In this document: one piece after another, positions 249 to 64,000 of the stretch
Layout of the letters: each line of letters opens with the position of its first letter
How positions within the stretch are numbered: the stretch's first letter is position 1
DNA from: Cafeteria roenbergensis
Lineage: Eukaryota; Sar; Bigyra; Bicosoecida; Cafeteriaceae
Length of the DNA: 64,000 bases
Reading direction: 5' to 3'
Assembly (NCBI GenBank): GCA_008330645.1
Contig: VLTN01000005.1
Coordinates: 310,001 to 374,000 of the forward strand
Program-made: the position numbers and the translations under genes
The notes under the pieces: generated by a model
Told to the model about the DNA's origin: nothing
Databases searched by the model: none
Seen by the model: the letters and a program-made list of their open reading frames with translations, nothing else

Positions 249-2095
249 TCACTCGCCATCGCCCCCTTGCGCAGCGAGCAAACACCCCAGCTGCCACTCG
301 TGCCCGTTGTGAACGAGCAGCTTGGAGCCGTCGGGCGACCACGACGCCGCTCGCACGGCGAATCCCTCCCCAACGTCGAGAAGGAACGCTCTGCCTTCGC
401 CGGGCGTCAGCACCACAGTTTTGCCCTGCGACGTCACGACCGCCAAGGCGTCCGGCAGCCCGGCGCGGCGCGGCCTCCAGTGCATCGCCGCCACGGGCGC
501 CGCAGCGACCAAGGCCGCGATCAGCTGCCCGCCCCCCGCCCGCCCGATGAGCGCCACGCGCCGGCAGGCGTCGTCCCGCCACGCGACAAAGCGGCCACTC
601 GCGCTGAAGGACAGCCTGCTCACTCCGCCGGACAGGTGTGCCTGCGCTGGGGCAGCAGCGCCTGCGCCGCTGGGCCTGCGTCCCGCGCCGGCGTCGCGCC
701 CCCTGCAGCCCGGCCCCGCTGTGGCCCGTGGCGCCTCACCGGGAAGCTCCACTGCTCCCGACGGAACGACGACCAGGCTGCTGGGCGCGGCAGCCTCCAT
801 CGCGGTCATGGCTGTTCGCCGCTGGGTGGGGACCGCTGCCTTGCGGCCCAGCCTTGCCGCGGCGCGTTCGCCCGCAGAGCCATGCGCGCCTGCGCCAGCT
901 CCTGCGGCAAGCGACGCAGCTGGCGCGGGGGACGGCTTGTCCTTGCCCTCGCCCTGCTCCTCCACGAACACGGCGACGTCATCCGCGCTGACCCGATCTG
1001 GAGCGCGGTACGAACCGACGCGCGCCCCAGTGTCCTGCGACGCGAACACCACGCGGCCGTCGTGGCACCCGACAGCCACCAGCGCGCCGCTGCCGGCTTG
1101 GGCGACGGCGCAGCGGCCAAACAGCCCCGCCACGCGAGCGCCTGGGGCACCGCCCCGCTTCGACGCGCCCTTTCCCGCCGCGAATCCCGCCGCGGATCCC
1201 GCCGCCGAGCCCGCCCTCAGGTCCACCGCGAGCGGCGTCGCGCCCGACAGCAGCGGCATCACGAGGGCCTTGTCAGCCAGAGCGTCATCGAGCACCAGCG
1301 CCGCCGTGTCGCTCCGGCAGAGCCACACCTTGCAGGCGTCGCGCGTGGGCAGTGGCAGCGCGGCCAGCACCCGCCAGGTCGCCTCGGAGGTCCCCTCCGC
1401 ACCGCCCGCGCCCGCCTTGGGCTGCGCTAGCGCCACCACAACAAGCTCGTCCGCGGTGGCCGGCCTCGACGCGTACACGATCAAGGAGCCGTCCTCGGAG
1501 CAGGCCAGGCTCCCTGGCGCGTGCTTGCACGGCGGCAGAGCCGCGCTGGTGCCGCCATCAACGTCCCACATCACCGACTGGACGCGCAGCACGGACGTCG
1601 TGAGCACGAATCTTCCGTCAACGCCAACAAAGCGCGCGTCCTCGAACTCTGCCACTGTGGCGTGCAGCACGGCCAGCCTGCCGCCGGTGGCCTCCCACAC
1701 CTCGCAGCTGTCCGCGCCGCGCTGCAGCACCAGCAGCCGGCCGCCGTCCGGGCTCCACGACACGCAAAGCGCATTCCGGCCGGCCTTCTGCGGCAGCAAG
1801 GCTCGCAAAGCGGGGGGCGTGGGAACGCGTCGTCGGCCCAAGCACCGCGAACCCCAACCTTGCCTGCGTCCGCTCGCCTCGCGCTCTCGCCACGCACGCA
1901 GCAGGCGCCTGGCGCATTGCTCACTCGAACCGGCGGCGAGAGCGGAACCACAACCAGCAGCTCGAGGGTCGCCGAGTCGTAGGCACGAACGGCGTCATCC
2001 CCCGCCACGGCGAACTTGTCACCGGCGCAGGACCACTCCAGGGTCGTGTGTGCCGAGGGCGGCGCCCCGTCCACGCACAGAAACTCGAACTCCAT
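249..2095 (-). CDS. WRAP73: WRAP73/WDR8-like WD40 protein
   Basis: Two exons in transcript order, 2095-1925 and 1787-249, joined in phase 0 across a GTGAGC...CGCAG intron, give 569 residues (human WRAP73 is about 460). The N-terminus begins MEFEFLCVDG. WD-type strands are visible, for example CVSWSPDGGRLLVL and SVMWDVDGG near residues 63-120, and the C-terminal block RLSFSASGRFVAWRDD, MHWRP and ASWSPDGSKLLV follows the order of the last propeller blades of WRAP73. The family is a centrosome and spindle-pole protein that works with SSX2IP-type partners in microtubule anchoring and cilium formation; that role is inferred from family only. Extra length is alanine-rich linkers around residues 250-400. 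The start is the first ATG giving the conserved N-terminal blade. It is head-to-head with the gene at 2356. Confidence 0.8.
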
Positions 2096-2355
2096 GCCGC
2101 GCGCTGCGAGGGCCGCCTCCCAGGCTGGGCAGCCAAGCCTCCCTGCTTGAGGCTCGCGCGGGGATCTGGCTGGTTCGCACCCCTCTGCCTGCAAGGAGTC
2201 GCGGCGGGCGCTCGCGCCGTTGGTGCCGCCGATTGCCTCGGCGCAAAAACCGGGCGCCTGCTCTGCATGGTGTGCTCTGCTGCGCATGGCTTGGACATGT
2301 CGGCGCAAGGAATCACACTCTGCGCTCAATCCTGCGCCCCCCCCCCCGTCAACTC
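2096..2355. promoter_or_regulatory. Shared 5' region of a divergent gene pair
   Basis: These 260 bp separate the start codons of WRAP73 (-) and the FN3-like gene (+), so both promoters must lie here or overlap the genes. A C-run sits at about 2337-2347, just before the plus-strand ATG. I see no TATA box or other recognisable core element. Confidence 0.5.
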
Positions 2356-3453
2356 ATGGCCGCCGCTGCCCCATCCGTGCATGACGTGATCAAAGCCGAT
2401 ATGGTGAGGCCTTGCTTGCCGAGACTCGCACTGCCGCCCGCCTCGCTGCCGGCCCCGGGAATGGCGTGCCTTGTCAAGTGTCGAGCCATGGAACCCGAGC
2501 GCGCGTTTCCGGATTGGCGTCGCCCCTCGTGCGCCCTGCCCCAGCGAGCTTGGGCCACCTCGCTCGCCTGCCCTTCCTGGCTTGCTCTACGTACGGCCCC
2601 GCCTCTCTTGCAGGCCTCGCCGCCGGCTCTGAAGGTTGCAAGTGTCGCGGTGGACCCGATCTCCGTGACAGCTTCGGCAGCCACTGTCTCCATCTCAATC
2701 GCGCGCGCGGATGGCTCGCCGCTGCTGCCCGAGCTCCCCAAGGAGGATGCCGCGAGCGCGGTCCGTACTTCCAGCATGGTCCTTTCGTGGGCCCGGGCCC
2801 AGGGGCTCAAGTTCGTGATTGAAACAGCCCCAAACACCATCTCGGCCACGATGTATTCCTTTGTGGGGACCGTCTGGACCCCGGCCAAGGGTGCGTTCGA
2901 GGGCTCGCACGCCTCAGCGGTCGGTACCGACCCAATGGCCCCTGCGCATGGCAAGGTGGCTGGCGGCAAGTTCCGTTTCCGCCTCACTGGCCTCCCGGAA
3001 GAGTCGCCGCTGTGCGTCCGTGTGTCCCTGGAGTCCACGGGCGGCAAGAGCGGCACGGTTGAGACCACATTCGCAACCATCTCCAAGGCTGCTGAGCCCG
3101 AGGTGTTGAAGAAGGCGGCTCTGGAACGCGAGCGGCGCATCGCGGCGTCCAAGGCCGTCACGCACGTCCGTTCCACCGCGCTCAAGACCAAGAGTGCCGA
3201 CCTCGCGCGCCGCGAGGCGGAGGCAGCCGCCGCTCGCCGTGCCGCGGACGCCCAGCGCCGCCAGCCCGTTGCCACCACCGAGGCGGAGTCAGAGGAGGAC
3301 GAATTCTCTGCGCTCAAGGAGGCAAGAGCGCTGCGCGAGGCAATGGTGGAGGCGCTCAGCGCAGCCCAAGACGATGGCGCCAAGCCCGCAGATGCCGCGG
3401 CAGCCGCCGAGTCGGGGTCGGCCGAGGAGGCAGCCGCCCCGGCCGAGGAGTAG
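2356..3453 (+). CDS. Unknown protein with fibronectin-III-like domain and acidic tail
   Basis: Exons 2356-2403 and 2614-3453, phase 0, GTGAGG...TTGCAG intron, 295 residues. The first exon codes for only 16 residues. Residues about 20-160 look like a beta-sandwich of fibronectin type III character: alternating hydrophobic strands (ASAATVSISIARAD, KFRFRLTGLPEESPLCVRVS) and a final strand near GTVETTFATI. After it comes a charged alanine/arginine-rich helix (about 165-225) with coiled-coil character and an acidic, alanine-rich C-terminus. No catalytic motif, signal peptide or membrane segment is visible. I do not recognise the family; FN3 is a fold guess. Its 3' end faces that of TNPO3, 236 bp away. 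Confidence 0.65.
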   Translation: MAAAAPSVHDVIKADMVRPCLPRLALPPASLPAPGMACLVKCRAMEPERAFPDWRRPSCALPQRAWATSLACPSWLALRTAPPLLQASPPALKVASVAVDPISVTASAATVSISIARADGSPLLPELPKEDAASAVRTSSMVLSWARAQGLKFVIETAPNTISATMYSFVGTVWTPAKGAFEGSHASAVGTDPMAPAHGKVAGGKFRFRLTGLPEESPLCVRVSLESTGGKSGTVETTFATISKAAEPEVLKKAALERERRIAASKAVTHVRSTALKTKSADLARREAEAAAARRAADAQRRQPVATTEAESEEDEFSALKEARALREAMVEALSAAQDDGAKPADAAAAAESGSAEEAAAPAEE

Positions 3454-3689: not shown

Positions 3690-6600
3690 TCACTCCGGAA
3701 TGTCGAAGCGGCCCGCACGGAAGGCACTCATGCAGCGCTGGTGGATGTCGAGCAGCGCCCGGTCGACCTTGTCAAACTCGAACGACCGCGACGGACCAAC
3801 GCCACGGAAGCACACGTTCTCGAGCACCTTTGCCTTCTCCTCCGGGTGCATGACCGAGTCCGGGACGGCGGCGTCGAGCTGCTCCTTGAAGAAGGGGCGG
3901 AAGGCGCCCACCTTGAGGAGGTCGCGCATGGCCATGATGACGGAGGAGATGGAGCCGGCGCTGCTGGTGATGGAGTGCTTGTGCATGGATCCCGCAGCTC
4001 CCGCGATGAGGCGCTTCACAATGGCGGCGCCGTACCTTCCAATGCTGGCCTTGACGGCAGGCAGCCTGCGCGAAGCGTTGCGCATTCTCTCGGCCAGAGA
4101 CACGTCACGGACGGCGAGCAGCTCGGAGTCATCCAGGAAGGGAGCCCCGATGCGAATGACCGTCTGGATGAACAAGAGCACCGCGCTCTGCGCCACCTGG
4201 CGGGAGGAGAAGAGGCCGGCATAGGCGCAGCGCAGGGCGTCGTCCAGGAGCGACCAGCCGAGCAGCTCGTCCGGCAGGTGCTTGGCCATGCTGGTGATCT
4301 GCGAGATTCCGAGGGCGGGAGAGCGCAGCCGGGCGGGTGAGGCCGAGGCTGCAAGCGCTGGGCGGGCGACGCTCGGGCAACGGGCGCGAGGGGCCAGGCG
4401 CGGCGCAGCAGGGCGAGCGGCGAGCCAGGTCGAGCCGCGTGAGCTCACGAGACAGAAGAGCTCGTCGACGAGGATGGGGTTGCGGTTAAAGGGCTCAACG
4501 GTCCCCGACACGGCAAGGGCGGCAAAGGCCTCCGTCGCCATCCGCGTGACCATCTCAGCCAGGGCCGCCTTGACCGGCGCGGCGCTCGCGAGCCCGAACT
4601 CTGCAATCAGCCGGGAGCCTGAGTACATGAAGCAGCTGAACTTGGTCTCCTCGTGCTTCTGCGCCAGGTCGCGCGCGAGGCTGGCCACGCGGCCGCGGTA
4701 CAGCTCCGGGAACGCACCGAGGATGGCGTTGTGGCAGGCGCAAACGGCGACTGCGATGCTCTCCTCGGACTTTCCCATCTCCAGCAGAGAGCTCATGGCC
4801 GGCCACAGGGCGGCCACGGTGGGCCGGAGGTGCTCGGGGCCCAGCATGCTGCCCTTGGCCGAGGCCAGACCGGAGATGAGCGGTCCGATACAGCCGATCG
4901 CTGCCGCCACCCCGTCCACGCCGATGCGGCGCACTGCCTCGGCGTCCGACGGCGGGCGGCGACCGCGCAGCTGGATGCCTTCGCTTCGCCAGGAGAACGC
5001 AGCGCGAATCCCGCTCGTTGGATCGGCGGCAATGGTCTCCACGGCGGCCACGAGGGGGCGCAGCAAAGCAGCGATGCCGCCCGACAGCGCCGTCTCCGAG
5101 CGGCTGGTAGCCACAAGATGCCCGAGCTGGTAGAGTGCATCGGCGGCGGGGGAGTCGGGAAGCTTCATGACCTGCGCAGGACGACGGAGCCGGGCGGGGA
5201 AGTCTTGTTGGCCGACGGGCCAAGCGGAACGCAGCCCGGCAACGCAGCAACTCGAAACACAGCGGCCGGGGTGGCGGCAACGTCAGCCGGCGCGGCCGGG
5301 CGGACGTGATCTCACGGAATTGACGAGCGCTGTGGGGAGGCTGCTCGCGCGGCAGTGGTCCGGGCACGCGCGCGTCAGCCCGACCAAGGCGCGGCAAGCG
5401 CCGGTGGCGCACGGGCCCGGCAGCCTCAGGTGGGCTTCGACGAACCGGGATACCGGGGCGAAGAGCTGGTCCCGCGGAGCGATCCACGGGGCCGCCTTGC
5501 GCACGAGGGACAGGGCCGAGAGGTGGACATCGGCGTAGCTCGGGATGGTGTGCAGCGCGGACAAGAGCGCGTCCAGCATGGGCAGCTCGGTGTCGGCGAA
5601 AACGCCGCAAACGGCGAATCCAGTCACCGTGAGGGCGGCTTCGAGGCGGCGCACCTCCGCCGGGGCTCGACCGCCGGCAGCGGCGGGGGGCACGGCGCGG
5701 GCCGCGCTGAGGGCAGTGCCGGTCATCCCCACCAGCTCGCGAACCACGGCGCCGGAGCCCTGAAGGCGGCAGACCTCGTCCACGCACACGTTGACCCAAT
5801 CGCCCATAACCTTCGTGGTGCCCACCCGCGTCTCGATCTCGTTCGCCTCGGCCTGCGTGATCTCAGGGCGGGCAATGGCGTCCTGGTGCGCGGCGGCGGC
5901 GGCGGCGGCGGCGGCGGGCTCGGCTCCGAGGTCCACGGGGGTGCTGTCGAAGTCATCAGCGGGCAGCTCCGACGCCGCGACGAGGCAGGGCAGGAGGCCG
6001 CTTGCGGAGGCAAAGAGGTCTGAGGGCAGGGGCTCGGAGCGCGACCTGGCCGAGACCGCCGCCCTGAAGAGCGCGTGCCAGAAGCGGAGTGCTTCCATCT
6101 GCACGGGACGGCAGCCCGACGCCGCGGCCACCGCCATCATGCGCGCGAGCCCAGGCCGCAGGGGAGCGAGCGCGGACGTGCTTCCCACCAGCGAGTGCGC
6201 GGCAATGCAGCCAGCGCTCGCCGCGGCGGCAGCCAGCGTGATCGCGCGGTCGTCCGTCTCGTCGTCGATGCAGAGCGGGATGAGGGAGCGGAGGAGGGGC
6301 TCCGCGTCGATGATGCTGGGGAGGACAGTCCCTGCCACGCTGGTCTTGTCGTCTGCCGTGCCGTCCCTGTCGACGTGCTCAAGCAGGGCGACGAGGAGCT
6401 GGCTGCTGTGCGCGAACGTGGCCTCCACCTTGAGGCCCGAGAGCAGTGCGCTGGTGAGGCGCGAGCCGGGGAGCACGGCCACGGGCATAATGCGCTCCTC
6501 CACCCACGCGGAGAAGGCCTTGAGACAGAGAGAGCGGATCTCAACGTTGGCCGAGTGCGACGCCAGGATGGCGTCCAGTGTGGAGTGCACTGCCTCCGCG

Positions 6601-7229
6601 CCCCGGGTGATCTCCGTGCGCACGGCGGACCTGCGGGACTCGCTGATGCAGGTTTCCCTCCGCGTGACCTCGGTGGGAAGCTCGAGCAGGACTGTGAGGA
6701 GGGCGAGCGCCTCGCAGGTGCCCTCGGGCGAGCCCAGGCGGGCCGGGCCACCGCAAGCCGCCACCAGCGAGGGAACGACGCTCGTCCAGGACGGCATGGT
6801 CACGGCCGCGGCCGCCAGCGCCACGGCGAGGTGGCGAAAGGCGGGACGGGCGGCCGCCTGGCCGGACGTGCGAAGCAGGTGCTTCAGCAGCATCGCGCGC
6901 AGCGACGCGTGGGACGACTCCGCCAGGCCCAGCATGTCATGCCGAACCTTGCTCGCCAGAACGCGCGCGGCCTCGGCCAGGTAGAGGGACGCGTCCCCCT
7001 GCTCGGTGATGGCCGTGGCCTCGAGCACGTGGGTCATGACGGCCCATGCCTCTGACGAGCGCTGCAGCCGGTTGAGAAACGTCTCCGCGGCCTTGGCGGA
7101 CTCGGTGCTAGCGCGAATTCGCGCCTCGCCGAGGGCCACGGGCACAGCTTGCCCGAACAGGCTTGTGAGCTCGGAAACGGGCTTGCCCGCGATGGGGTCG
7201 GCCGCGCCTCCTGCGGCAGCCGCAGCCAT
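3690..7229 (-). CDS. TNPO3: Transportin-3 / MTR10 family nuclear import receptor
   Basis: Three exons in transcript order, 7229-5316, 5171-4449 and 4298-3690, all in phase 0, give 1081 residues (human TNPO3 923). The protein is an all-helical HEAT-repeat importin-beta relative. Diagnostic stretches match TNPO3 in order: FLNRLQRSSEAWAVM near residue 50, SSHASLRAMLLKHLL, TMPSWTSVVPSLV, FSCFMYSGSRLIAEFG, and NPILVDELFCL just before the last intron. The family carries SR-rich splicing factors (and in yeast Npl3) into the nucleus and releases them on Ran-GTP. An alanine run from a CGG repeat sits at 5891-5917. The last intron (4299-4448, 150 bp) has length divisible by three and no in-frame stop, so it can be mistaken for coding; the homology gap there argues it is spliced. 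The start is the first ATG after a low-complexity 5' stretch. Confidence 0.88.
5891..5917. repeat. (CGG)9 trinucleotide run coding for alanines in TNPO3
   Basis: Nine CGG units on the plus strand, read as alanine codons on the minus strand, form a poly-alanine linker between HEAT repeats of the TNPO3 protein. Confidence 0.9.
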
Positions 7230-7660
7230 GGCACCAGATCCGAGCCGCTCCTGCCGGAAGCTGCAGAGAAACGGGGGAGGGAGAAATCGCGCACGCGCTC
7301 GTTGCGGCGGCCGCCCGTCGCCGGCGGCGGGGGAAGGGGGGGGGGCAGCCGATGCGCTCCAGACGGCTGAGAACGGGCGCCAACTCTGGGCGTGCTGATC
7401 GCCCGCCCCGCTCCTCTCACACAAGACTGGGCACGAAACGGGGACCCAGGCAATCGCAGCAGCACCCAGACCAGCTGGACGCGCTCGCGGGGAAGCCCTC
7501 TCGCTCGGCAGGTGACCAGTGGAGAGCGCGCCGCACTACTCAGAGCGAATGTCTCTGCATTCGCAACGCGGCGGCGACGCCCGAAGTCATGCGCCACTTT
7601 TGGAGCGTCTTGCACGCCCCTCCCCAGGCTCCCCTCGGAAGGGTCCGGAGCTGAGCTGTC
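7230..7660. promoter_or_regulatory. Divergent intergenic region TNPO3 / bromodomain gene
   Basis: A 431-bp head-to-head spacer. It holds a G-tract near 7337-7346 on the plus strand and otherwise no recognisable element or small gene. Confidence 0.45.
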
Positions 7661-9159
7661 ATGGCCGCTGCTGGGAAGAGCGCCGGGATGGCGGAGGTGC
7701 GTCCTCGCGCCGCTTGTGGACCTCGAGCCCGAGACGGACCCGCGCTCAGCGACCTGCTCCCGCTTGCCTCTCGTTGCGCGGCCGCCCTCGCAGTGCGCCA
7801 AGCTTCTGGAGTTCTTCATGAAGCACAAGGACGCAGGTGCGATCATTCGGACCCTGCCGGGGCGGCGCGCCTCGGGGGCCGCCCGCGCAGCTCGCTTGGC
7901 TCACACCGTTTGCCAACGCGTGCCCGCGTACCCCTCCTGCCTTGCCTCCTCGCAGCCCCGTTCCTGGAGCCTGTGCGCTGGGAGGAGTGGGGACTCCACG
8001 ATTACCCCAAGGTGATCAAGCAGCCCATGGACCTGGGGCTGGTCATGGTGAGGCCGCCCTTTTGCTTTTGCGCCCCTGCAGTCCCGCAAGCCGAGCGCCT
8101 CTCGCTGGGCGACCGGGTGCTCCCGCCCCCCGCTCTGGCGGGCGCGCGGGCCTCGCGGCCGCGCCCCTGCCGCGCCAATGTGGTCAAGGCGGGCGTCTCC
8201 TGCCTGGTCGCTGCCAGCGACGGGCGCAAGCCGAGCCCTTGCACGAATGCGGCGAGCCCGCGCAGAAGAACTTGGAGGCCGGCAAGTACGACTCCCCCCT
8301 CGAGTTCGAAAAGGACGTGGCACTCATCTGGGACAACTGCATGACCTACAACGCAGTGAGCCAGCGGGCCTCGCTTCCCGGCGCGCGCGGCGCCGCCCAG
8401 GAGGCAACGAACCTGCAGCCCAGCAATTCGAACCCACGCGACGTCAATGGCTGCCCGACTTGCGCAGGACGGCTCTGAGTACTTTGAGATCGCCAAGCGG
8501 CTGAAGAAGCTGTTCCAGCAGAAGTTCTCGAAGATCGCGGCGTCGGCAGGTGAGCCACGACTCGCGGGCGTGAACGTGCGCTGTCTGGGGCGCGTTGGAC
8601 GCCCGCGTGCGTTTGCACTCCCGCCGACCGCCCCGGAATGCACGTGTGTACCGCTGCCGTGTCTCGCAGGGATTCGCACGGACGAGCACCGGTGAGCCTG
8701 GGTCGAGCGCGCATTATGGCCAGGTGCGCCGCTTGCGGGCGTGCGAGCACGAGACGCTTGGTGTGGCTGTTGCCTGAGTTTGTGCCCTCTCTCCGTCGCA
8801 GCGCCCCCACTCTGGCGGAGAAGAAGACGTTCAGCCACAACATCTACCACATCACTGCAGACGAGCTCGGCAAGGTCGTGCAGATCCTGGACCAGCGCTG
8901 TGACAGCTGCATCCGCAAGGTGAGAGCACGCCCTCCTCTGCTTTGCGCAACCCACCGCAGCAGAACGCGGGCCGCGGAGCAGCGCCCGGCCACTTCTGAC
9001 ACCACCATTGCCGATTCGCCCTTGCTCTCGCAGATCGACTCCGACGACATCGAGATTGACATCGACGCCATCAGCGCCGAGACGTTCTGGGAGGTCGACG
9101 CGTTTGTTTCCAACGTCATCGCGGCAAGCAAGTCCAAGGGCGCCAAGCGCAGCCGCTAG
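7661..9159 (+). CDS. Minimal BET-type protein: one bromodomain plus NET domain
   Basis: Eight exons: 7661-7696, 7794-7836, 7956-8047, 8266-8355, 8468-8549, 8670-8691, 8802-8919 and 9034-9159. All junctions keep frame and total 609 nt, 202 residues. Residues about 13-115 are a bromodomain with the PF...PV shelf (A27-V33), DYPKVIKQPMDL at 42-53 and the acetyl-lysine-binding asparagine N86 in MTYNA. Residues about 125-195 are an NET (extra-terminal) domain: HITADELGKVVQIL, then DSDDIEIDIDAI. A basic tail SKGAKRSR ends the protein. The combination is that of BET/GTE chromatin readers, which bind acetylated histones and recruit transcription machinery, but this one is far smaller than animal BRD or yeast Bdf proteins and lacks a second bromodomain. 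Exon 6 is only 22 nt. Confidence 0.88.
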
Positions 9160-17585: not shown

Positions 17586-17617
<32 letters not shown>

Positions 17618-25430: not shown

Positions 25431-25463
<33 letters not shown>

Positions 25464-54600: not shown

Positions 54601-55006
54601 CGGCGGGGCTGGCGCCAAAGGCTTGCCCTTTCCGCAACCAACGGCGGCAGTTTGCGACCACCGGCTGCCCACCCCGCCCGGTCCTGATCTGGCCCCACGC
54701 TTGCCCCCAAGCGCATACGCTGCAATGCCCTTCCCAAATGCCTCTCGCTTCGCACCGTAGGACGCCGCCTGCGAAGAGCATGAGCACGCAGGAGTCGTCA
54801 ACGCCGTCTGCGCCGGGGTGCGTCCTGCCCGCAAAGTCCACCAGAACCGCATTCCTGTGACAGCCCGAGACGGCTTCTGCCCCGCAGGGCTCCAGACGTA
54901 GCCCCAGGGGCTTCGGGGCAGCAGGCCGCATGCTGGCCGCTGCAAGTGAACGACCCGTGCCGCGGCGGGCAAGCCAGCGTTCAAATCCTTGGGCGCCGAC
55001 AAGCAT
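51638..55006 (-). CDS. Large WD40-repeat protein with basic coiled-coil C-terminus, unknown family
   Basis: Modelled as one exon from the ATG at 55006, 1122 residues; the frame stays open upstream to 55393 without an earlier convincing start, so a 5' exon is possible. WD-type strands are seen at AVSAVAVSPGGHLIAAGCENGSVLLW, CLVAAGTARGHVTVWLA, LAVVALGCGDGLVRTLSLVEA and ALLAAVQSGDSCLWAWGDW, with long Ala/Gly/Pro linkers between. After about residue 750 the protein is low-complexity, then a charged helix SARRRREREEKARASQAARW of coiled-coil character and an Ala/Arg-rich end. No enzyme motif or membrane segment. It resembles scaffold WD40 proteins of cilia in general style, but I cannot name a family. 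Confidence 0.6.
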   Translation of the reverse strand: MLVGAQGFERWLARRGTGRSLAAASMRPAAPKPLGLRLEPCGAEAVSGCHRNAVLVDFAGRTHPGADGVDDSCVLMLFAGGVLRCEARGIWEGHCSVCAWGQAWGQIRTGRGGQPVVANCRRWLRKGQAFGASPAVTYAQPDLWLCLVARRSWDVYSGAVADYRCVLPGAGPGGEPVAMPMLLRPAAVLPTGASDRTGPSLPSHTEARIVVGVRSQRRLCCVTVPRPPTAVPLEPRTRSMYGSRVEDLPGSPLPSAVSAVAVSPGGHLIAAGCENGSVLLWAAAAPADGGGALHAAAGRARDAGRLPRLLPVGVDTPADELERRRCAAVTACEWPSPPPARVGPADGAGSPDLPACLVVAAREGGSGLAFSVASWVARPSDPASLRLVESLDQGTLPSGGAVQPAAEPMVLPSQVTCLASCPCPWPTAPAGGGESASSRTDGHPARGESASAKACCLVAAGTARGHVTVWLAQQPDSLSAPPRLTLLAEHLCLQSDAASRPVAVGSIDVCFRPHACHEGSAGGSSPSGRAGHAVPRSWEGAPDGAGGRAAEALAVVALGCGDGLVRTLSLVEAGHRRGAEARVASGGTASGGGPADEDAGARQARPCGRMVPTAAAASARLVAAAGEGMGLSLVAAGAAPVCAPPSGAVTCARFHRTAKRRMPAMRQGGGGGGGAQTEAGQDQGPSVRGALLAAVQSGDSCLWAWGDWPDLPSAAHASAAQADAAGGGREDAFAHGALSSAGPAGSGSHTGDADAGRRRDSARAGAASTAQLDSEGAGSAPGAQGPDGFVSSLLAVAKEAARRAAAPPTGKGALPFPSGPPLPLAGRPPQAMAAAANARRPAAAERSHPEATALEPEPRAPSIPRPQAASCLPCSGAAGDAPAPRTAPPRATSPVAVPRPAAPPASAPSDAPAREASRAAPPAKRRVQAPHSAASGAWGVRPDSGARSRLLAVPDRAMNHREQALSARRRREREEKARASQAARWAQRRREVHSALAGPGRPGGQCSASCAPARTPAPPPPAGFMGAERAKALFVAAEQARLRGQARGQLQSGTSREGSWLDLPPHSLATPRLGSLLHLEARAEQMRQGPAAGELEACVAAAARVSGEELVKRPLWKQAGGH

Positions 55007-56313: not shown

Positions 56314-57890
56314 TCACAGCTCGTCGCTCTGCGCGAGTTCCGCAGCAATGGCCGCCTCCAGCTCGTCGTCGTCCACTTCATCGTCGCCGTCGGCTGGTGC
56401 GGACGGACTGTTGCCCCCCGCAGACAGCTGTTCGAGGTCGAAGAGGTCTTCGTCCGCAGCACCGGGACCACCGCTATCGTGCTCAGGGGCCGAGTCCGAA
56501 GCATCACGCAAAGACTCATCTGCACTCGCTCCCGCAGAAGCATGTGCATCCGTTGAGGGGACGGCTGCCGGCGACGCTGGGCGCTCCATGCGGGCTGCGC
56601 GCTCGAGCGCGTCGTCCAGCTCGCCGTCCAGCCCGCCGCCGCCCAGCGCACCCTCGTCTGCATCGTCTCCCAGCGCATCCAGCACAGACTGCTTTCGCGC
56701 TGCGGCGCTGCTGGTTTGCGCGTGGCCCTGCGAGCCATGCCTGGAAGTGTCGCCACCACGCGCGGAGCTGCCAAGCAAATGCCCCGTTGGAGAGGCCTTG
56801 TTGCGGCCCTTTTCATCCTCGGCTGACGAAATCGCACATCCCGAGGAGCCCAGGGAGCCTGCTGCCGCCGCCGGTTCTGCGGCGCGAGTTGGCCGCGAGT
56901 GCGTTTGCCCCGCCAAGCCAGCGCTTTGGGAGCTCCCAGCCGCGCCACGCCCACTTCCTTCGTGACCACGGCCGTCAGCATCAGGCACAGCGGCCGCCGC
57001 AGCCGCCGCAGCCGCAGCGACTGCCTCGCCCTCCTCGGCCTCGAGGCGAACCCTTGCGGAGTCCCTGACGAGCTCTGCCTTGTAAAAGAAGTTTGAGAAG
57101 AAGAGCTCTTCGCTCACCACCCTCGGAACAAGCTTGAATCGGTGCTTGTCCACGGCAGGCACCGCCTTGAGCAAGCGCTCCACCGCCTCGACACGGGTTC
57201 GCAAATCAAACGCCCACCCGGCGCCTGAGGGAGGAGCTGTGGTGTACCTGCGGCCGCGAAGAACACCCAGGCAAGCAAAGCACACGCTCGCGTCAATCGA
57301 GGGCGCCACGGCCCGAGTGGGGCGTCCAGTGGCGGGCATTGTTGACGCCGCTCTCACGTCGCGCGATCGTCCGCCAAGGCTATGACTGCGGCCTTGACTT
57401 CCCCAGCGGCTTCCCGCGCCCGGTCGGACGCCCCGAGGCCCTCCCACGGGAGCCTGCTCAGAACCGGAATCTTCTCCTCCTCGCCTGCGAGCCGGCGAGA
57501 GCAGCACGATGCACGTGCAGGATGAAAATCACTCCCCCCCTCCCCCCCCCCGCTACCCTTCATCCCCCCACGAGGACTACGCGTCGCAGTGGCACGCGGG
57601 CGCTTGCGCGCCGAGACTCACTGCGCACGTGCGCCTCGCGCTCCGCGAGAAACTTTTCGTGGTGCTCCTTGGCCTTCTGCTTGACCCGCTCAGTGGCCGA
57701 CTGAACGGTTTGCTGGGCCTGCAGCACGCGGCGGGCGATCAGGTTGGGCGGGGGAGCGGCGGGGGCAGCGGGGCTCGGCAGCCTGTGCACGTGGCGGAAC
57801 CTGCGCCGACGCGCGACCGACTCGGGCTCCGGCGGGCGCCCGCCTCACAGACTGCGCGACCGAAGAGAAAAACGTCGACCAGGATTCCAT
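56314..57890 (-). CDS. BSD-domain protein (SYAP1/BSDC1-like)
   Basis: Four exons in transcript order, 57890-57849, 57718-57622, 57484-57358 and 57247-56314, phases 0, 1 and 2, 399 residues. The N-terminus MESWSTFFSSVAQSAQQTV followed by a charged helix RVKQKAKEHHEKFLAE and EEEKIPVLSRLPWEGL is typical of SYAP1/BSDC1 proteins. The BSD domain lies near residues 88-160 and includes HRFKLVPRVVSEELFFSNFFYKAELV with the conserved paired aromatic FF/FY positions. The C-terminal half is disordered, Ala/Ser-rich and acidic, ending in DDDELEAAIAAELAQSDEL. SYAP1-type proteins act in membrane-linked growth signalling; BSD domains also occur in TFIIH p62, so function is open. A C-tract lies in intron 2. 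Head-to-head with the deacetylase (146 bp). Confidence 0.8.
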
Positions 57891-58036
57891 CACTGCAGTC
57901 GCGACCCCACAGCCTCGTTGGCGGTTCTGTCGCGCAGCGTGCGCCGGGAGTGCGATTTCGGCGACGGCAAAAGCAAGGCAGAGCGCGCCTGCCGCACAGC
58001 ACGGCCGCTGGCGCACGCGCACGCCGCGCGCGCTCA
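57891..58036. promoter_or_regulatory. Shortest divergent promoter region, BSD protein / NagA-type enzyme
   Basis: Only 146 bp separate the two start codons, the tightest head-to-head pair in the window. No motif is recognised. An upstream in-frame ATG for the plus-strand gene exists (57509) but would overlap the BSD gene extensively and codes for no domain. Confidence 0.5.
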
Positions 58037-59887
58037 ATGGCGAACGCCGCAGGGCGCCGCGCCGCGGCAGTTGAGGGCGAGCTTGCAGCGCCAGCCAGCC
58101 ACGCGCACGGTTCCGGAGTGGTGTTTGTCGCCCGCTGCGTGGTGGTTGACGCTGCCACGGTGCTGGCCCCCGGGTTGGTGGTCGCTTGCCCTCGCGGCCC
58201 TGGGCAGCCCATGGATGTCAAGGCGGTCGGCAGCCCGGGGGATGCGTCCGTTGAGGCGGCGGTTCGTGAGTGTGGGGCTGCGCCCTTGGTCGTCGAGTGC
58301 TCGCTCCTGATTCCGGGGCTGGTCGACATCCACACCCATGGCGTGGGCGGGCACGAGGACGTGACGCTGTTCTGGACGAATCCCTCGTACTCTCTGAGCG
58401 CGGCGGCGGCGAATGGGACCACGAGCCTGTTGGCCACGCTGACGCTTCCGTCCGCTGCCGGCCACTGCTGCGGGCCGCTCACGGCTGCAACTGCAGAGGC
58501 CGGCTCCGGCGGCGCTGCCCCAGTGGTCCAGCCCGATCTCGTAGCAGCGCTGTCCGGGGCAGTGGGGAGGCTGGAGCCCGGCTGCGCGGTGCTAGAGGGC
58601 GTTCATGCCGAAGGCCCGGTGGTGGCAGACTTGGGAGGGCTGCCGCCAGGAGAGCAATGCATGTCCCTCAAGCGCTTTGGCGAGCTGTGCAGGTGCCTGG
58701 GGCCGATGCTGCGAGCAATGACGATAAGCCCGAGCAAGGAGGCGCGGCCGTCCGCGGCAAGCGGTGCGGCACCATTCGCGCGGCTGTCGATGCTGCTTTC
58801 GAGCGGCGTCACGCCATGCCTCGGCCACGACAAGCAGTGCACTGACGAGGACATCGTCAAGACGTTGGCTCACTGTGCTGCTGCCGAGACTGGCTTGAAA
58901 CCGACGGAGGCGGCATTGGAAGGAGCTGCAGCCTGTGGCGCAGGCCAGTGCGAACCGACCGGATGGCCCGAGAAGGCAGCGAGCGCTGCATGCATGGCCG
59001 ATCCTCGCTCACGCAGCCTGACGGCCTTGCAGCGGTTTCCTGACTCGGGAGGCGTCCCTCGCCCTCACATCACGCACCTGTTCAACGTGTGCACGTTTCA
59101 CCACCGCGACGCCGGGCTGGCCAACGTGGGGCTGCTGGACCGCCTGCCCGGCGAGCCCGCTCTGGCTGGGCCGTCGGTCGAGCTCATCGGCGACCTTGTG
59201 CACGTGCACCCGTGGGCAATTGCCGCAACGCTCGCGGCGCGGGGGTCACGCGCGGTCTGCTTCGTGACAGACTCCATCGCCGAGCCGCGCCCCGGCCAAC
59301 GGCTGTCGTACGCCGGTCGGCACCTTGCGGTCCAAGCGGTAACAGAAGGCGCAAGCGCTCGGGTTGACGCCGAACACGCTCCGGGCTTGGCAGGAAGGGC
59401 AGGAGACCCGCCTCCTTGCCGAGTTGTGCTTGAGGGTACCGAGACGATTGCTGGGAGCTGCGACACGCTTTGGGCCTGCCTGAACAGGCTTGTGACGCGC
59501 TTTCGCTTGCCACTGCCAGCCGCGGTGGCATGTGTCTCCGAGAATCCGGCCCGGATCGCCGGACTTCCGCACGTTGGCACGCTGCAGCCTGGGTGTCGAG
59601 CCGACGCCATTGCGCTGGGCGTCGACGTAGCAGGCCCGAGCGGCGCCCCGGCCAGGAGCTTGGGCGACGCGCTGGCAGCCGTCAGCAAGCTCTTTAGCGC
59701 AGGGGCAGGGGAGGTCCGCCTCGAGGCGCGGCTTGCAAGCGGGGAGCTGGACGCGTTTGGCTGCGTTCGAATGGCAGCAGCGCGAGAGGCAGAAGAAGGC
59801 ACTGCCGAGCGGCTGCCTCGGCTCTCGAAGGGGCTGCCGGCTTTCGACAGGCTCGTGTTTGTAGGAGGCGTCCCCGTACCCCGCTGA
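58037..59887 (+). CDS. AMDHD2: N-acetylglucosamine-6-phosphate deacetylase (AMDHD2/NagA type)
   Basis: Single exon, 616 residues from MANAAGRRAAAVEG (animal AMDHD2 about 410). Amidohydrolase TIM-barrel signatures in order: LIPGLVDIHTHGVGGHEDV with H99 and H101, GVHAEGP with the metal-binding E192, THLFNVCTFHHRDAGLANVGLLDRLPGE with H347, VELIGDLVHVHP, CFVTDSIAEP with catalytic D412, GTETIAGSCDTLWACL, and SENPARIAGLPHVGTLQPGCRADAI. It removes acetate from GlcNAc-6-phosphate, giving glucosamine-6-phosphate for the hexosamine or glycolytic pathway in the cytosol. Extra length comes from several Ala/Gly/Cys-rich insertions, notably between E192 and H347 and near residues 435-460. Its end lies 132 bp from that of CDC5. 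Confidence 0.92.
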   Translation: MANAAGRRAAAVEGELAAPASHAHGSGVVFVARCVVVDAATVLAPGLVVACPRGPGQPMDVKAVGSPGDASVEAAVRECGAAPLVVECSLLIPGLVDIHTHGVGGHEDVTLFWTNPSYSLSAAAANGTTSLLATLTLPSAAGHCCGPLTAATAEAGSGGAAPVVQPDLVAALSGAVGRLEPGCAVLEGVHAEGPVVADLGGLPPGEQCMSLKRFGELCRCLGPMLRAMTISPSKEARPSAASGAAPFARLSMLLSSGVTPCLGHDKQCTDEDIVKTLAHCAAAETGLKPTEAALEGAAACGAGQCEPTGWPEKAASAACMADPRSRSLTALQRFPDSGGVPRPHITHLFNVCTFHHRDAGLANVGLLDRLPGEPALAGPSVELIGDLVHVHPWAIAATLAARGSRAVCFVTDSIAEPRPGQRLSYAGRHLAVQAVTEGASARVDAEHAPGLAGRAGDPPPCRVVLEGTETIAGSCDTLWACLNRLVTRFRLPLPAAVACVSENPARIAGLPHVGTLQPGCRADAIALGVDVAGPSGAPARSLGDALAAVSKLFSAGAGEVRLEARLASGELDAFGCVRMAAAREAEEGTAERLPRLSKGLPAFDRLVFVGGVPVPR

Positions 59888-60019: not shown

Positions 60020-63000
60020 TCACGCTTCTACGGGGACAGTGCCGCGGCTGAGCGCGTCGAAGCGCTGCTGCAACTGGCGCTCGCGGGCCACGGCGCTGTC
60101 GAGCGCCTCCTGCGCCTCCATGGCCCTGCGCTCGCCCGCAGCTTGCTCGGCCTTGTACAGCCGCGCAAACGCCGCGAGGCGCATTGTGGCGTCCGAGTAC
60201 TGAGCGTGCGCCTTTACCTGGCGCTCCCGCTCGGCGGCCGCGGCCTGCTCCAGCTCGGCCGTGAGCGCAGCTGCGGCTTCGGCCCGGCGAAGCACGCGGC
60301 GCTCCTCGGCCGCCACGGCGGCGGCGGCAGATGCGTGCTCCAGCTTGCGGGCCTCGGCAAGCTCTGCAGGGGAGACGCCGCTGAAGGTGAAGCGCCCATC
60401 GGAGGCGGCAATGGACACCCCCGCTGCCGCTGCCGACGCCGACGACGACGACGACGCCCCTCTCGTTGATGCGGCCGAAGCCGAAGTCGCTGCCAAGGAG
60501 GACGAGGACGATGACGAGGACGACGAGGAGGGGGACGAGGACGGCGGCGGCGCGGAGGAGGCGGCCAGGAGCTCAAGCTGGTCAGCCAGCACCCACTCTC
60601 CGCGGGACGGCAGCCACAGCGCCGCGGAGGCCGAGCCCAGCATCTCAAGCTCTGCTTGGACAGAGGAGGCGGCGCCCGCGGCGGGGCCCAGGCCCTCTCC
60701 CTCGGCGGCCTCCTCGATGAGAGCCCGGGCAGCAGCAAGCTCGCGGTCGTCGAACGTGTCCGTTGCGGGCGGCTGGCCCGCCGGCAGGGACAGCCGGCCC
60801 CGCTCCGACGTGACGGGGAAGCGGAAGGCGTCCGCGCGCACAAGCGCCAGGACCTCGGCGTCGATCGCCAACGCCGCGGCCCGCAGCTCTGCCGCAGAGC
60901 AGGCCTCCGACGCGCCGCCTGTGCCTCGTGCAGGCGCGACGGCCGCTGCCTCCGCCTCCGCGTGCGCCGCAGCCGCCACCGCCGAGAGCGCCTCTGCCGA
61001 CGGCGCGGGCGGCCGCGGTAGCCTCTCCTCGTGACGGAGCGCCGCCGAGCGGCGGCGGAACTCAGCCCTCGCCGCCGCCTCCCGTGCCGCCGCAGCTCGC
61101 TTCTCCGCCTCCTCGGCGTCCTCCTCAATCTCCTCCGCCTCGGCACCGCGCAGCCTAGCCGCCACCGCCTCGGCCTGGGCAGCCCACGCGCTCCCCGCAG
61201 CCGAGGAGGACGACGAGGACGACGCGGCCCCGGCCTGAACGTGCTCGACGCCGTCGGCATCGCCGTCGGCATCGTCATCGTCGCCAGCGTTGCCGCCGGC
61301 AGCTCCAGCTGCAGCGGCCGCCGCTTCCTCGTCCGAGTCCTCGCCGTCGTCCAGCCACTGGCTGGCGTCGTTCACCGGCGCCGGCAGCGTCGCAAGCTCC
61401 TGAGCGACCCGTGCCCGCGCCGCTCTGAGCCCCCTGCGCTCGTCCCTGGTCATCTTCGTCTCTGGAACGCCAGCCGCCAGCACGGACAAGGCCTCCACCT
61501 CTGCAGAGTCAGCGGCGTCCCACGCCGACGACGCCGTGGATCCGGCCACGGACGACGCGCCGTCCCCGCCAAGCGGGGCAGGCGTTCCGCCCCCTCCGCC
61601 GCCGCCCAAACCAAGCCCCAGCACGCTTCCCGGTCTGCCCGCCTGCCCGCTGGCCAGGGAGCGGTTCAGGCCCAGCTTGTCCCTGAGCAGGCGGCCCCCC
61701 CTGCTCACCATCGTCCACGAGGAGCGCGTGCTCTGCCCCGCCACCGACGCCGCTGCCCCGCCTGCGACCACAGACGCGGAGTCTCCGATGTCCGCGGCGT
61801 CGGCTGCGGCGTCGGCTGCGCCGTCGGTGAGCTGGCCAGTCATGACGCTGCCGCCCCCGACGACGGATCGCGCGCCCACGGCCCCAGGCGTGATTGCGCC
61901 AGCCGCGGCCAGCCTGGCGGCCAGCGGGTTCATGGTAGGGTTCCTAGGCTCCGCCGTGCCGCCCTTGGGGGTGAGCGACTGGATTCCCGCCTCCAGCTCG
62001 GGGTGGGCTCCCCCCTGGAGCGGGGTGGGGCGGTCTCGGCGCACGATCAGGTTGCGAGCCTCCTCCATGACGGCGTCGCGGGCCGTGCGGCTGCGATGAG
62101 GGCCCGTGGGGGGAGGCATGGCCACAGATCCCAGAACGGAGGCGCCGTCGAAGCCGTCGGCTCCCGCCGCGCCGCCAGCGCCCAGCGCCTCGGGGCCCAG
62201 GCGCGCGAGGGCCTCGATGTCCTCCGCGCCCATCTGGGGGCGGGGCAGGGACAGCTTTGTGCGCTTCGCCACGTGCGCGGGGTCCTGTCGCCGAGCCTCC
62301 TCGGCCAGCGCGTGAGGCAGGTCGGCAGCCGCCTCCTTCTGGGACTTGCGGACCGAATCCTTCCGGCGCCGAGCCTCCTCCTCCTCGCGGCGCTTGGCCA
62401 CTGTGGCCTGCAGCCGGTCGCCCTCGAAGTCGGTCGCGCCGGCCCTGAGAGACGCGGCGGCGGCGTCCTCGGCGCTGGTGTCGAAGAAGCCGATGGGCGC
62501 GTCGCGGCGGAACGGCACCTCGGTGGCGTAGTCCACGCCCTCGCGCTGGCGCTTCTGGCGCACCTCGAGCCCTGCGGCCTTAAGCTCCCGCATCTTCCTC
62601 AGCGACACGATGTGCTGCGCAGTCTTGAGCTGCTTGTCGCGCGCCTTGCGCTTGGCCTTCTTCCCGCGGGTGTTGGCGAGCCGCGCCCGGGCCTCTGCCA
62701 GCATCTCCATCTCCTCGTCTTCCATGTCCACCGGGTCGGGCCGCGCCGGGCGAGTCTCGGGCATCGGGTCCCGCTCGCCGGCCCGCAAGCGGCGCGGATC
62801 CTGCTTGGGGTCCAGCGTCACGCCGGACGCCTTGGCGGTCGCCTCGTCCAGCAGCCGCTCGTACCGCTCAAGGCACTGCGCGGGCGTGCGCCCCACCAGC
62901 GAGGCAATGGACTGCCACTCCGTGGACCTCGTCTTGGCGAGGTACAGCAGCCGCTCGTCCTCGTCCCGAGTCCACTCCGTCTTCTTGATCGACGGGTCCA

Positions 63001-63365
63001 GCCAGTTGTACCACCTGGCCTTGCACTGCGCCGCTGTCTTGCGCGGCAGCAGGGACGCAACGCGGGCCCAGTTTTGGGTGCCGTACTTCATGGCGCCGGC
63101 CTTGAGCAGCTCATCCTCCGAGTTCTTCCAGACGCCGCCGTGAAGCTGCGGCAGCGGGCGCAGCGGGGCGAACGTGGGGTGCGAGCGTTGACCTCGGCAA
63201 CTTGCGCGCGGCGCCTTGGCGCTGGGCGGGGCCGCGCGCTGCGGGCGAGGGGCGCGCGAGTCCAGATCGGCCGGAACGGCCGGCCAAGCGTTCCGCTGTG
63301 CGCTGCGGATGGGCGAGGGCCACGCGCCGCGGAAGCGCCGCAGCAGTACTCACATAGATGCGCAT
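60020..63365 (-). CDS. CDC5L: CDC5 / CDC5L pre-mRNA splicing factor (NTC complex)
   Basis: Exon 1 is 63365-63354 (only MRIY), exon 2 63145-60020, phase 0, GTGAGT...CGCAG, 1045 residues (human 802). Two Myb repeats follow: LHGGVWKNSEDELLKAGAMKYG and NWARVASLLPRKTAAQCKARWYNWLDPSIKKTEWTRDEDERLLYLAK, then EWQSIASLVGRTPAQCLERYE, very close to CDC5L. The next segment KKAKRKARDKQLKTAQHIVSLRKMRELKAAGL and VPFRRDAPIGFFDTS is also CDC5-specific. The middle contains glycine, serine and acidic insertions; the end is a coiled coil (VARERQLQQRFDALSRG). CDC5 is a core scaffold of the Prp19/NTC complex in the active spliceosome. Without the four-codon exon the protein would start at an internal Met, which the conserved GGVWK block rules out. 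Confidence 0.95.
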
Positions 63366-63789
63366 GGTGGACCCGGGCCAGAGCGCCCTGGCAGCCGCTT
63401 GGGCTGCTGCGGAGCGAGCTGTGCTGCATCGGGCCGCCTCGGCCCTGAGTTGCAACCCGGACTGGGCTCGTAGTCAGACGCGACTGAGCCCGCAAGAACG
63501 TCTGTGCGGCTCTGCTTGTGAAGCTTCGCGCCCGCGTCGACGCGGGCGGCACCGTGTGGGGCCTCGCGAGGGGCCCGAGCTCTCCACCGGCCGGCCCAGG
63601 TGAGCCAGCGCGCTGCATTGCGACCGCGCGGAGGTGTGCGTGCGGAGCTGCGGGTCGCCGTCGGCCAGTGGTCAGAGCGCCCCTCGAGTCGCCGCATTGG
63701 CGCTCGGCACGCGCGCTGCTTGCCGCCACCACACGGCCCGCCGGCCCCGCGCCCCGAGCCTGGACGCTCGCAGAAGGACAACCGAAGCA
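63366..63789. promoter_or_regulatory. Divergent intergenic region, CDC5 / right-edge gene
   Basis: A 424-bp head-to-head spacer with no recognised motif or small gene. Confidence 0.4.
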
Positions 63790-64000
63790 ATGAGCTCGGC
63801 AGGACTCGGTCCTGCTGCTGTGGCGGGGGCGTGCTGCGCAGCCGCTGCCGCCGGCGTCGCCGTGGGCGCCCTGGTCGCGATGCGCACCGGCCCTGACGGC
63901 GCTGATGGCGCCGACGTGCCAGCTGCGGCCGAGGCGAAGCTGACTCCGCAGCTGTCGTACCCCTATTCGGCTGTCGGCGACGCGACGCCGCTCGCGCCGC
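63790..64000 (+). CDS. Start of a membrane-anchored protein, cut by window edge
   Basis: An ATG at 63790 opens a frame that runs without stop to the window end (70 codons seen). It begins MSSAGLGPAAVAGACC and continues into an Ala/Val-rich hydrophobic stretch of about 20 residues (residues 9-31), probably a signal anchor or signal peptide, then an acidic/alanine linker and EAKLTPQLSYPYSAVGDATP. The high third-position GC fits the other genes. I cannot name it, and an intron may begin within the visible part. Confidence 0.5.
   Translation, partial: MSSAGLGPAAVAGACCAAAAAGVAVGALVAMRTGPDGADGADVPAAAEAKLTPQLSYPYSAVGDATPLAP

Follow-up and report, generated by a model that had tools for sequence, protein, structure and literature searches.

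Along a 64,000-nucleotide stretch of the Cafeteria roenbergensis genome (contig VLTN01000005.1, positions 310,001 to 374,000, here termed the window), most neighbouring genes lie on opposite strands, raising the question of whether the genome is organised in bidirectional promoter units or whether the alternation arose by chance. The answer that we consider probable combines a chance run of alternating genes with a candidate motif, CRRCTCTGCH, that would belong to promoters in general and be used jointly by the two genes of a compact divergent pair, in the manner of an ordinary bidirectional promoter.

Gene map of the window

Genes were called with an HMM gene finder trained on 364 kb, comprising 264 kb of the contig that carries the window (C5, window included) and 100 kb of a second contig (C1), and a second, retrained model was used alongside the first. 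GC content is 71.2% in the C5 sequence, 66.8% in the C1 sequence and about 71% in the window; the available portion of the genome paper gives 70.1% for the CrBVI assembly (PMC6972860). The genome is assigned to Cafeteria burkhardae, a bicosoecid stramenopile, and each of two primers taken from that paper has a single exact match in it. In the window, 21 genes were called in the strand order -+-+-+-+-+-+--++--+-+. Homology on the called strand was found for 19 of them (18 above the Pfam cut-off and cytochrome c by phmmer), while the Pfam search of these 21 genes gave no match for gene 2 and only a WD40 match below cut-off for gene 17. A photosynthetic alga was considered as the source and rejected, as searches of the assembly at E 0.001 matched neither a chlorophyll a-b binding protein nor the RuBisCO large chain. 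The genes and head-to-head spacers are as follows.

249..2095, minus: gene 1, WD40-repeat protein (HMM; Pfam ANAPC4_WD40 above cut-off)
2096..2355: head-to-head spacer 1, 260 bp; CTCTGC sites 2183, 2261, 2275, 2318
2356..3453, plus: gene 2, without Pfam match (HMM; first-model start 2461)
3690..7229, minus: gene 3, transportin-3/importin-13-like (Pfam Xpo1 and TPR_TNPO3_IPO13)
7230..7660: head-to-head spacer 2, 431 bp; CTCTGC sites 7263, 7553
7661..9159, plus: gene 4, BET-domain protein, 8 exons, the upstream ones bromodomain-like on our reading (Pfam BET; first-model start 8447)
10182..11180, minus: gene 5, Saf4/Yju2 splicing factor (Pfam)
11181..11367: head-to-head spacer 3, 187 bp; central CTCTGC sites 11257, 11279
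11368..13111, plus: gene 6, WD40 protein (Pfam)
13367..15307, minus: gene 7, RNA pseudouridine synthase (Pfam)
15308..16262: head-to-head spacer 4, 955 bp with an uncertain gene 8 start; CTCTGC sites 15318, 15660, 15668
16263..31091, plus: gene 8, very long (~4,900 aa), ubiquitin carboxyl-terminal hydrolase domain (Pfam UCH; HMM)
31387..32336, minus: gene 9, cytochrome c (phmmer with the first-model protein; Pfam below cut-off; exons refined later)
32337..32513: head-to-head spacer 5, 177 bp; lone central CTCTGC site 32430
32514..35211, plus: gene 10, DEAD-box helicase (Pfam)
35522..36401, minus: gene 11, ribosomal protein L17 family, presumably mitochondrial (Pfam; model starts 36065 or 36717; we read the start as ~36401 from a readable L17 N-terminal exon upstream)
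36402..36706: head-to-head spacer 6, ~305 bp if gene 11 starts at ~36401; CTCTGC only at the edge, 36699
36707..38793, plus: gene 12, TMEM161-like (Pfam; retrained-model start 36722)
39406..40878, minus: gene 13, dihydroorotate dehydrogenase (Pfam)
41400..45573, minus: gene 14, SLC12-family transporter (Pfam AA_permease and SLC12)
45574..45772: head-to-head spacer 7, 199 bp; central CTCTGC sites 45667, 45707
45773..48255, plus: gene 15, importin alpha (homology)
49545..51311, plus: gene 16, glycosyl hydrolase family 47 (Pfam)
51638..54931, minus: gene 17, WD40 match below cut-off (Pfam search)
56314..57890, minus: gene 18, BSD-domain protein (Pfam; first-model start 57339)
57891..58036: head-to-head spacer 8, 146 bp; lone central CTCTGC site 57978
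58037..59887, plus: gene 19, amidohydrolase, by name taken to be N-acetylglucosamine-6-phosphate deacetylase-like (Pfam)
60020..63365, minus: gene 20, CDC5-like Myb splicing factor (Pfam Myb and Myb_Cef)
63366..63789: head-to-head spacer 9, 424 bp; lone CTCTGC site 63510
63790..64000, plus: gene 21, phosphoribulokinase/uridine kinase family, running beyond the window to a would-be 65190 (Pfam PRK)

The strict alternation of the first 13 genes described in the initial annotation recurs in the HMM strand order, and the independent HMM returns the same 17 opposite-strand pairs among 20 (nine head-to-head, eight tail-to-tail and three tandem), with tail-to-tail gaps spanning an identical 132-1022 bp in the first model. 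The gene identities likewise agree with the remark that no common pathway is obvious for the partners. The claim that nine head-to-head pairs lie 146-450 bp apart stands for the number of pairs and for seven of the nine retrained-model gaps between start codons (4, 146, 177, 187, 199, 260, 424, 431 and 955 bp), but not for those of 4 and 955 bp. The first model gives 187-1217 bp, the range differing between models because the gap depends on the start codon chosen. The 4-bp gap looks like a start miscall, and becomes ~305 bp with the L17 start at ~36401. Measured between start codons rather than mapped start sites, the gap is below 1 kb in 9/9 window pairs and 24/29 pairs overall with the retrained model, and in 8/9 window pairs with the first.

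Across 20 parameter settings, 17 keep 17 opposite pairs (of 19-22) and the remaining three give 13/18, 15/19 and 11/17. Removal of all genes shorter than 150 aa leaves 11-13 opposite pairs of 17-19, and the genes lost in this way include BET, cytochrome c and L17, all supported by homology. Wrong gene calls, such as antisense shadow frames in GC-rich DNA, could in principle generate alternation, and long antisense frames are numerous at the GC content of the window. However, in addition to the homology of 19 of the 21 genes on their called strands, the called frame outscores the antisense frame in 71 of 72 C5 genes, and all 72 strands were recovered in each of 12 flip trials, albeit with a model whose training set included this DNA. 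We therefore reject such an artefact, which these three lines of evidence make scarcely credible.

Gene orientation beyond the window

At least 17 opposite pairs among 20 would arise under random orientation with P = 0.0013, before allowing for the choice of window. For a run of 12 opposite pairs among 92, P is 0.009, 0.031 or 0.095 at per-pair rates of 0.50, 0.556 or 0.62, in a window that was picked for its run. The sequence outside the window provides a sample of 300 kb, about 1% of the genome. There, the first model places 40/72 pairs on opposite strands (56%, 95% CI 43-67; P = 0.20) and the retrained model 40/65 (62%, 95% CI 49-73; P = 0.04), and the comparison of window with outside gives P = 0.06 in the retrained model. 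The corresponding same-strand counts, 32/72 or 25/65, are near the ~50% reported for the majority of 64 eukaryotes in the available text of a survey, where Monosiga, Cyanidioschyzon, Thalassiosira pseudonana and Cryptococcus are among the few genomes named as having less random orientation (PMC2871058).

The proposal that the whole genome is arranged in bidirectional promoter units, with opposite neighbours well above half everywhere and the window typical, draws support from the retrained model, in which 57/85 pairs are opposite when the window is included (P = 0.001 against one half), the outside excess reaches the P = 0.04 given above, and other settings give 38/63, 38/60 and 38/50 outside, the 38/50 coming from a setting that called just 71 genes. 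In the first model, C5 with the window also shows an excess (46/71, permutation P = 0.011). However, the first model finds no significant excess outside (P = 0.20) and 11/21 opposite pairs on C1, and its outside fraction varies from 40/82 to 34/48 across 20 settings. Moreover, the retrained model merged same-strand neighbours when subjected to 20 flip trials, and the opposite fraction rose from 0.516 to 0.552, an inflation of about 4 points, and same-strand pairs of ~50% are the usual condition in the 64-eukaryote survey, as far as its available text extends (PMC2871058). We consider such a genome-wide arrangement unlikely.

The genome paper gives 7,857-8,483 genes for each of four C. burkhardae strains (PMC6972860). 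When random genomes were simulated with 8,483 genes and each cut into 424 windows, the mean number of windows with at least 17/20 opposite pairs was 0.66, 2.4 and 6.5 at per-pair rates of 0.50, 0.556 and 0.60. Genome-wide alternation is not upheld by the sampled counts, and roughly one to six such windows are expected by chance at this gene number. The alternation looks mostly like a local chance run; gene orientation across the genome would then be nearly random, perhaps slightly enriched in opposite-strand pairs. Balancing of transcription-induced supercoiling and avoidance of transcription-replication conflict are familiar ideas for selection on alternating orientation. No result here points to either: a genome-wide excess is not established by the outside counts, and there is no consistent GC skew across the window, making selection of either kind very improbable here. 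The idea of bidirectional promoter units is not supported as a genome rule by the outside counts. It gains support at the level of individual pairs, whose compact spacers carry a central element as bidirectional promoters would, although this element also precedes tandem genes.

The CTCTGC element in intergenic spacers

Divergent opposite-strand pairs number nine in the window and 29 in the 364 kb. CTCTGC was the top enriched upstream 6-mer: of 94 upstream stretches 62 contain it, where shuffled sequence yields 25.6. It forms the core of the extended candidate motif CRRCTCTGCH. Among spacers of 120-450 bp it occurs in 20/20 head-to-head, 8/9 tandem and 6/21 tail-to-tail cases, and among tandem spacers of any length in 27/28. 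A site at 50-200 bp from the start is found for 40/58 divergent and 12/28 tandem genes, and in 332/1706 coding 150-mers.

The position of the element also separates the spacer classes. A site in the middle half is present in 12/12 head-to-head and 0/14 tail-to-tail spacers of 120-300 bp, in 18/20 and 3/21 respectively at 120-450 bp, and at 301-450 bp in 6/8 divergent (shuffles 2.2, maximum 6) and 3/7 convergent spacers. Spacer 6 of the window is an exception without a central site. A two-sided distance rule, which asks for one site at 50-175 bp from each of the two starts, is satisfied by 12/12 divergent and 0/14 convergent spacers of 120-300 bp, with both sets of limits chosen after the spacer list had been seen and gene models trained on the same DNA. 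Shuffled spacers gave a mean of 1.66 and a maximum of 6 under this rule (500 shuffles), and the best of any 6-mer reached at most 10 of 12 in 300 shuffled sets. In a split check, CTCTGC ranked first outside the window (7/7) and was then found in 5/5 cases inside it (0/2000 shuffles), and two alternative annotations placed it centrally in 11/11 and 9/9. With a leave-one-out weight matrix, only 12/29 divergent spacers reach an empirical P below 0.05, and central divergent hits (18/29) do not differ from tandem hits (14/34; P = 0.13).

Sites occur in either orientation, with 5 pointing toward and 8 away from tandem genes. Orientation neutrality argued from divergent starts (26:27) was withdrawn, because sites were counted from both ends, which largely forces such a balance and leaves the count without evidential value. 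Short tandem spacers score 0/3 by the two-sided rule, but all three hold a CTCTGC site and therefore do not serve as a negative control.

TATAAA and TATATA were each found in 0/94 stretches on the sense strand within the last 120 bp upstream, and TCTCGCGAGA in 0/94 upstream stretches. In animals, bidirectional promoters carry GABP, NRF1, NFY and TCTCGCGAGA elements, which do not resemble CRRCTCTGCH. An AT-rich open region in divergent spacers was rejected, with GC of 0.70-0.73 in all five fifths and no clear dip, as was a palindromic motif, since the CTCTGC flanks do not look palindromic by eye. Divergent spacers shorter than tandem ones were not retained as proof of a shared promoter: the test gave P = 0.16 in the first model and 0.002 in the retrained one, and is therefore dependent on start calls. 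Additivity of spacer lengths, with tandem as the mean of the other two classes, was uninformative (519 bp expected, 1055 bp observed; 629 bp observed when only tandem gaps below 2 kb, 30 of the 35, are taken).

Probable sharing of the element by divergent pairs

In the reading that we favour, the alternation would be a chance run in a compact, intron-poor genome of near-random gene orientation, and CRRCTCTGCH would be a general upstream promoter element, one whose sites occur in either orientation. In a compact head-to-head pair, a site between the start codons, ~55-165 bp from each, would serve both genes. A putative sequence-specific factor would bind this site and open the spacer, and RNA polymerase II would start outward on both sides, so that the partners might be co-expressed.

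Alternatively, CTCTGC may lie upstream of genes in general, every gene owning its element independently, so that short divergent spacers simply force the sites of two genes together without sharing. Tandem genes are as rich in the element, as the 8/9 and 27/28 counts above indicate, and weight-matrix hits upstream of tandem genes exceed those in controls (14/34 against 24/111, P = 0.028). However, a lone exact site is found in 9/20 divergent spacers of 120-450 bp and 11/29 of any length, in which case one gene of the pair has no site unless the single one works for the two, although weaker variants may be present; tandem spacers of 120-450 bp hold one lone site in 8/9 cases. We hold independent ownership to be possible rather than probable. 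A broader form of the sharing hypothesis, advanced only tentatively and by analogy with the general regulatory factors of yeast, is that most bicosoecid RNA polymerase II promoters are organised by a general regulatory factor, neutral as to direction, that recognises CRRCTCTGCH; such a factor would set the open region and fire both ways by default, making compact head-to-head pairs a natural genome unit.

Bidirectional promoters of head-to-head pairs are described in the available texts for divergent genes separated by under 1 kb, with elements in the common spacer (PMC2871058, PMC3303733, PMC2648788). The Cafeteria pairs resemble these in that most have start codons within 1 kb of each other and that their compact spacers contain a candidate element, but differ in the element itself, the GC-rich CRRCTCTGCH, and in belonging to a bicosoecid. 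Phytophthora infestans, also a stramenopile with compact promoters, has a median intergenic region of 430 nt, and most known factor sites lie within 75-150 nt of the start site; the available main text of this core-promoter paper contains no mention of CTCTGC, bidirectional or head-to-head (PMC3599244). Gene orientation and host promoters are not treated in the available portion of the Cafeteria roenbergensis/burkhardae genome paper (PMC6972860), and no host-promoter study for this stramenopile branch was among the papers listed by literature searches. Cafeteria is a model marine flagellate and the host of CroV and mavirus. The analysis separates the conspicuous alternation, which chance would be expected to produce, from a signal that experiments can address, and if the central CTCTGC drives both genes it would provide a defined host promoter element for this flagellate and could be used directly in the design of compact dual reporters.

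Patterns of the motif between start codons were also counted genome-wide, giving 660 for CAT-motif-ATG, 533 for the inverted arrangement, 574 for ATG on both sides and 664 for CAT on both sides. A reversed-pattern control (12,875 vs 1,626) was discarded as an unfair null with other dinucleotides. With CATG contexts allowed for, contigs C1-C6 contain 60 outward-only and 37 inward-only units (P = 0.025), which weakly supports a shared element.

Gene models and genome sample

The assembly containing the window comprises 167 contigs and 36,303,456 bases; the available text of PMC6972860 gives 36,327,047 bp in 170 contigs for the published CrBVI assembly of Cafeteria roenbergensis, a species that later papers, as far as their accessible text goes, call C. 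burkhardae. Two primers published for this species were tried, and each has a single exact match in the assembly, so that the species assignment is well supported, that of the strain being inferred. GC content is 71.2% in 264 kb of contig C5 (VLTN01000005.1, which carries the window) and 66.8% in 100 kb of contig C1, and a search of the assembly for chlorophyll a-b binding proteins and the RuBisCO large chain returned no match. The sole 1-kb blocks below 58% GC in the 364 kb sample lie in a gene-poor stretch at C1:488001-491000 (GC 0.52-0.57). A further 5.7 kb without genes called by our first model (C5:402674-408351) has a GC of 0.654, and a perfect repeat of 31 GGC units lies shortly past the stop of the SLC12 gene (window 41257-41350).

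Genes were called by a Viterbi gene finder that models coding, intergenic and intron sequence; its training set consisted of the window, 200 kb of flanking C5 sequence and 100 kb of C1. The called introns show a strong consensus, with GTGAG donors and CGCAG acceptors, although only GT and AG were imposed. In the window the first model called 21 genes, 19 of them on a strand supported by homology, with 17 of 20 neighbouring pairs on opposite strands, a number retained in 17 of 20 parameter settings. Removal of genes below 150 aa, which include the homology-backed BET, cytochrome c and L17 genes, lowers the opposite pairs to 11-13 of 17-19. Short upstream exons were overlooked by the first model, and control exons were recovered by four settings of a retrained version. 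The retrained setting used (87 genes, 1.6 introns per gene) was chosen because it lies close to the gene density (8,483 genes per 36.3 Mbp) and the 1.67-1.89 introns per gene given in the accessible part of PMC6972860; it again gave 17/20 opposite pairs in the window, while two of the four settings gave 17/19. The 17 of 20 opposite pairs of the initial annotation were thus obtained from an independent gene finder, which also reproduced its tail-to-tail distances of 132-1022 bp. One gene of the window (16263-31091) has hardly any introns and encodes about 4,900 aa, of which residues 2,570-3,030 or so form a ubiquitin hydrolase domain. Ten further genes in the whole first-model list exceed 2,500 aa.

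Strand alternation inside and outside the window

Under random orientation, 17 or more opposite pairs of 20 would have P = 0.0013. Counts that include genes truncated by the ends of a stretch gave, outside the window, 29/51 opposite pairs in the C5 flanks and 11/21 in C1 with the first model (40/72 combined; 40/82 to 34/48 over 20 settings) and 40/65 with the retrained model (P = 0.04; 38/63, 38/60 and 38/50 in the three other settings, the last calling 71 genes). The opposite fraction outside the window is estimated at 55-60%, with 95% intervals of both models that include 50%. Orientation is near random in the majority of eukaryotes surveyed, according to the accessible text of PMC2871058. 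In simulated random genomes of 8,483 genes, opposite rates of 0.50, 0.556 and 0.60 yielded a mean of 0.66, 2.4 and 6.5 twenty-pair windows as extreme as this one, and runs of 12 or more opposite pairs numbered 1.0, 3.1 and 7.1 on average, so the window is the kind of place that a scan would pick out.

Two further readings are possible, a mild excess of opposite pairs throughout the genome or a local one. They draw on the 46/71 opposite pairs of C5 including the window (permutation P = 0.011), on the retrained total of 57/85 (P = 0.001) and on the comparison of window and outside under the retrained model (P = 0.06). However, the retrained model itself raises the opposite fraction: in 20 flip-control trials it merged same-strand neighbours and moved the fraction from 0.516 to 0.552 (highest 0.712), whereas 12 such trials of the first model showed no bias. 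The suggestion of the initial annotation that the genome is organised in bidirectional promoter units is not supported as a genome-wide rule by the pairs outside the window; the retrained total that includes the window speaks in its favour.

A promoter-associated CTCTGC element central in compact divergent spacers

CTCTGC or its complement GCAGAG was found in 62/94 upstream stretches of first-model genes, where dinucleotide shuffles gave 25.6. In length-matched spacers of 120-450 bp taken from the retrained model, CTCTGC was present in 20/20 divergent, 8/9 tandem and 6/21 convergent spacers, which indicates that the element accompanies promoters generally, divergent ones being one class only. 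All eight tandem spacers with CTCTGC have a lone site, as do 9/20 divergent ones despite their two gene starts. The aligned sites of the 20 divergent spacers read C(G/A)(G/A)CTCTGC(A/C/T), with C at -3 in 15/20 and never G after the core (20/20).

In compact divergent spacers the site is central. By limits picked post hoc, once the list of spacers was known, 12/12 divergent spacers of 120-300 bp have a site whose distance to each of the two starts is 50-175 bp (500 shuffles: mean 1.66, maximum 6/12), compared with 0/14 convergent ones. Requiring a site in the middle half gave the same 12/12 and 0/14; at 120-450 bp it gave 18/20 divergent, 3/21 convergent and 4/9 tandem, and at 301-450 bp 6/8, 3/7 and 3/6. 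The best site was offset from the spacer centre by 0.079, against 0.198 by random placement (0/5000). When the best central 6-mer was picked outside the window and then scored inside, CTCTGC came top (7/7) and was found in 5/5 spacers of the window (0/2000 shuffles); two other annotations gave a central site in 11/11 and 9/9. The head-to-head spacer between an L17 family gene (-) and a TMEM161-like gene (+), about 36402..36706 in the window, would be an exception with 36401 as the true start on its left, and its 4-bp version under the retrained model was left out of the spacer counts.

Weight-matrix scoring weakens this picture. When the matrix was built from the divergent spacers of C5, held-out tandem promoters stood out from controls only modestly (14/34 against 24/111, P = 0.028). 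In leave-one-out scoring 25/29 divergent spacers reached at least 6, but 12/29 had an empirical P < 0.05; central divergent stretches (18/29) were separated from coding (12/57, P = 0.0003) and convergent ones (6/28, P = 0.003), with no clear difference from tandem stretches (14/34, P = 0.13). Start triplets around the motif genome-wide pointed outward on both sides in 660 cases and inward in 533, with ATG on both sides in 574 and CAT in 664, all four counts being confounded between strands by the palindrome CATG in which head-to-head start codons often lie. On contigs C1-C6, where the lists are complete, 60 units were solely outward and 37 solely inward (P = 0.025), a weak result in the predicted direction. 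CTCTGC occurs in either orientation, with 5 sites toward the gene and 8 away at tandem starts; this does not prove neutrality, and a near-equal count at divergent starts was rejected as an argument for it, being largely forced by the way of counting.

Proposed action and 3' flanks

The central position suggests that a factor may bind the site and, once bound, support initiation on both sides. Divergent spacers show no clear AT-rich dip, so their openness would arise from the bound factor and not from base composition. Partners such as Yju2 and a WD40 protein, or cytochrome c and a DEAD helicase, lack an obvious shared pathway, in line with the general remark of the initial annotation. Bidirectional promoters are already well known. 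Literature on promoters and gene orientation in Cafeteria, bicosoecids and stramenopiles, in a search with most subscription journals and bioRxiv outside its range, held no description of the CTCTGC element, and neither did the accessible text of PMC8547959, which is about promoter motifs in integrated virophages, or of PMC3599244.

The 3' flanks carry a different element, CACACGCA, found in 20/94 downstream stretches of first-model genes against 3.0 on dinucleotide shuffles, and in 10/28 convergent, 3/28 tandem and 0/29 divergent spacers. CACACGCA/TGCGTGTG is a candidate 3'-end signal. In the 364 kb sample the pair is enriched just past stop codons, for example in the tail-to-tail spacers of the window.
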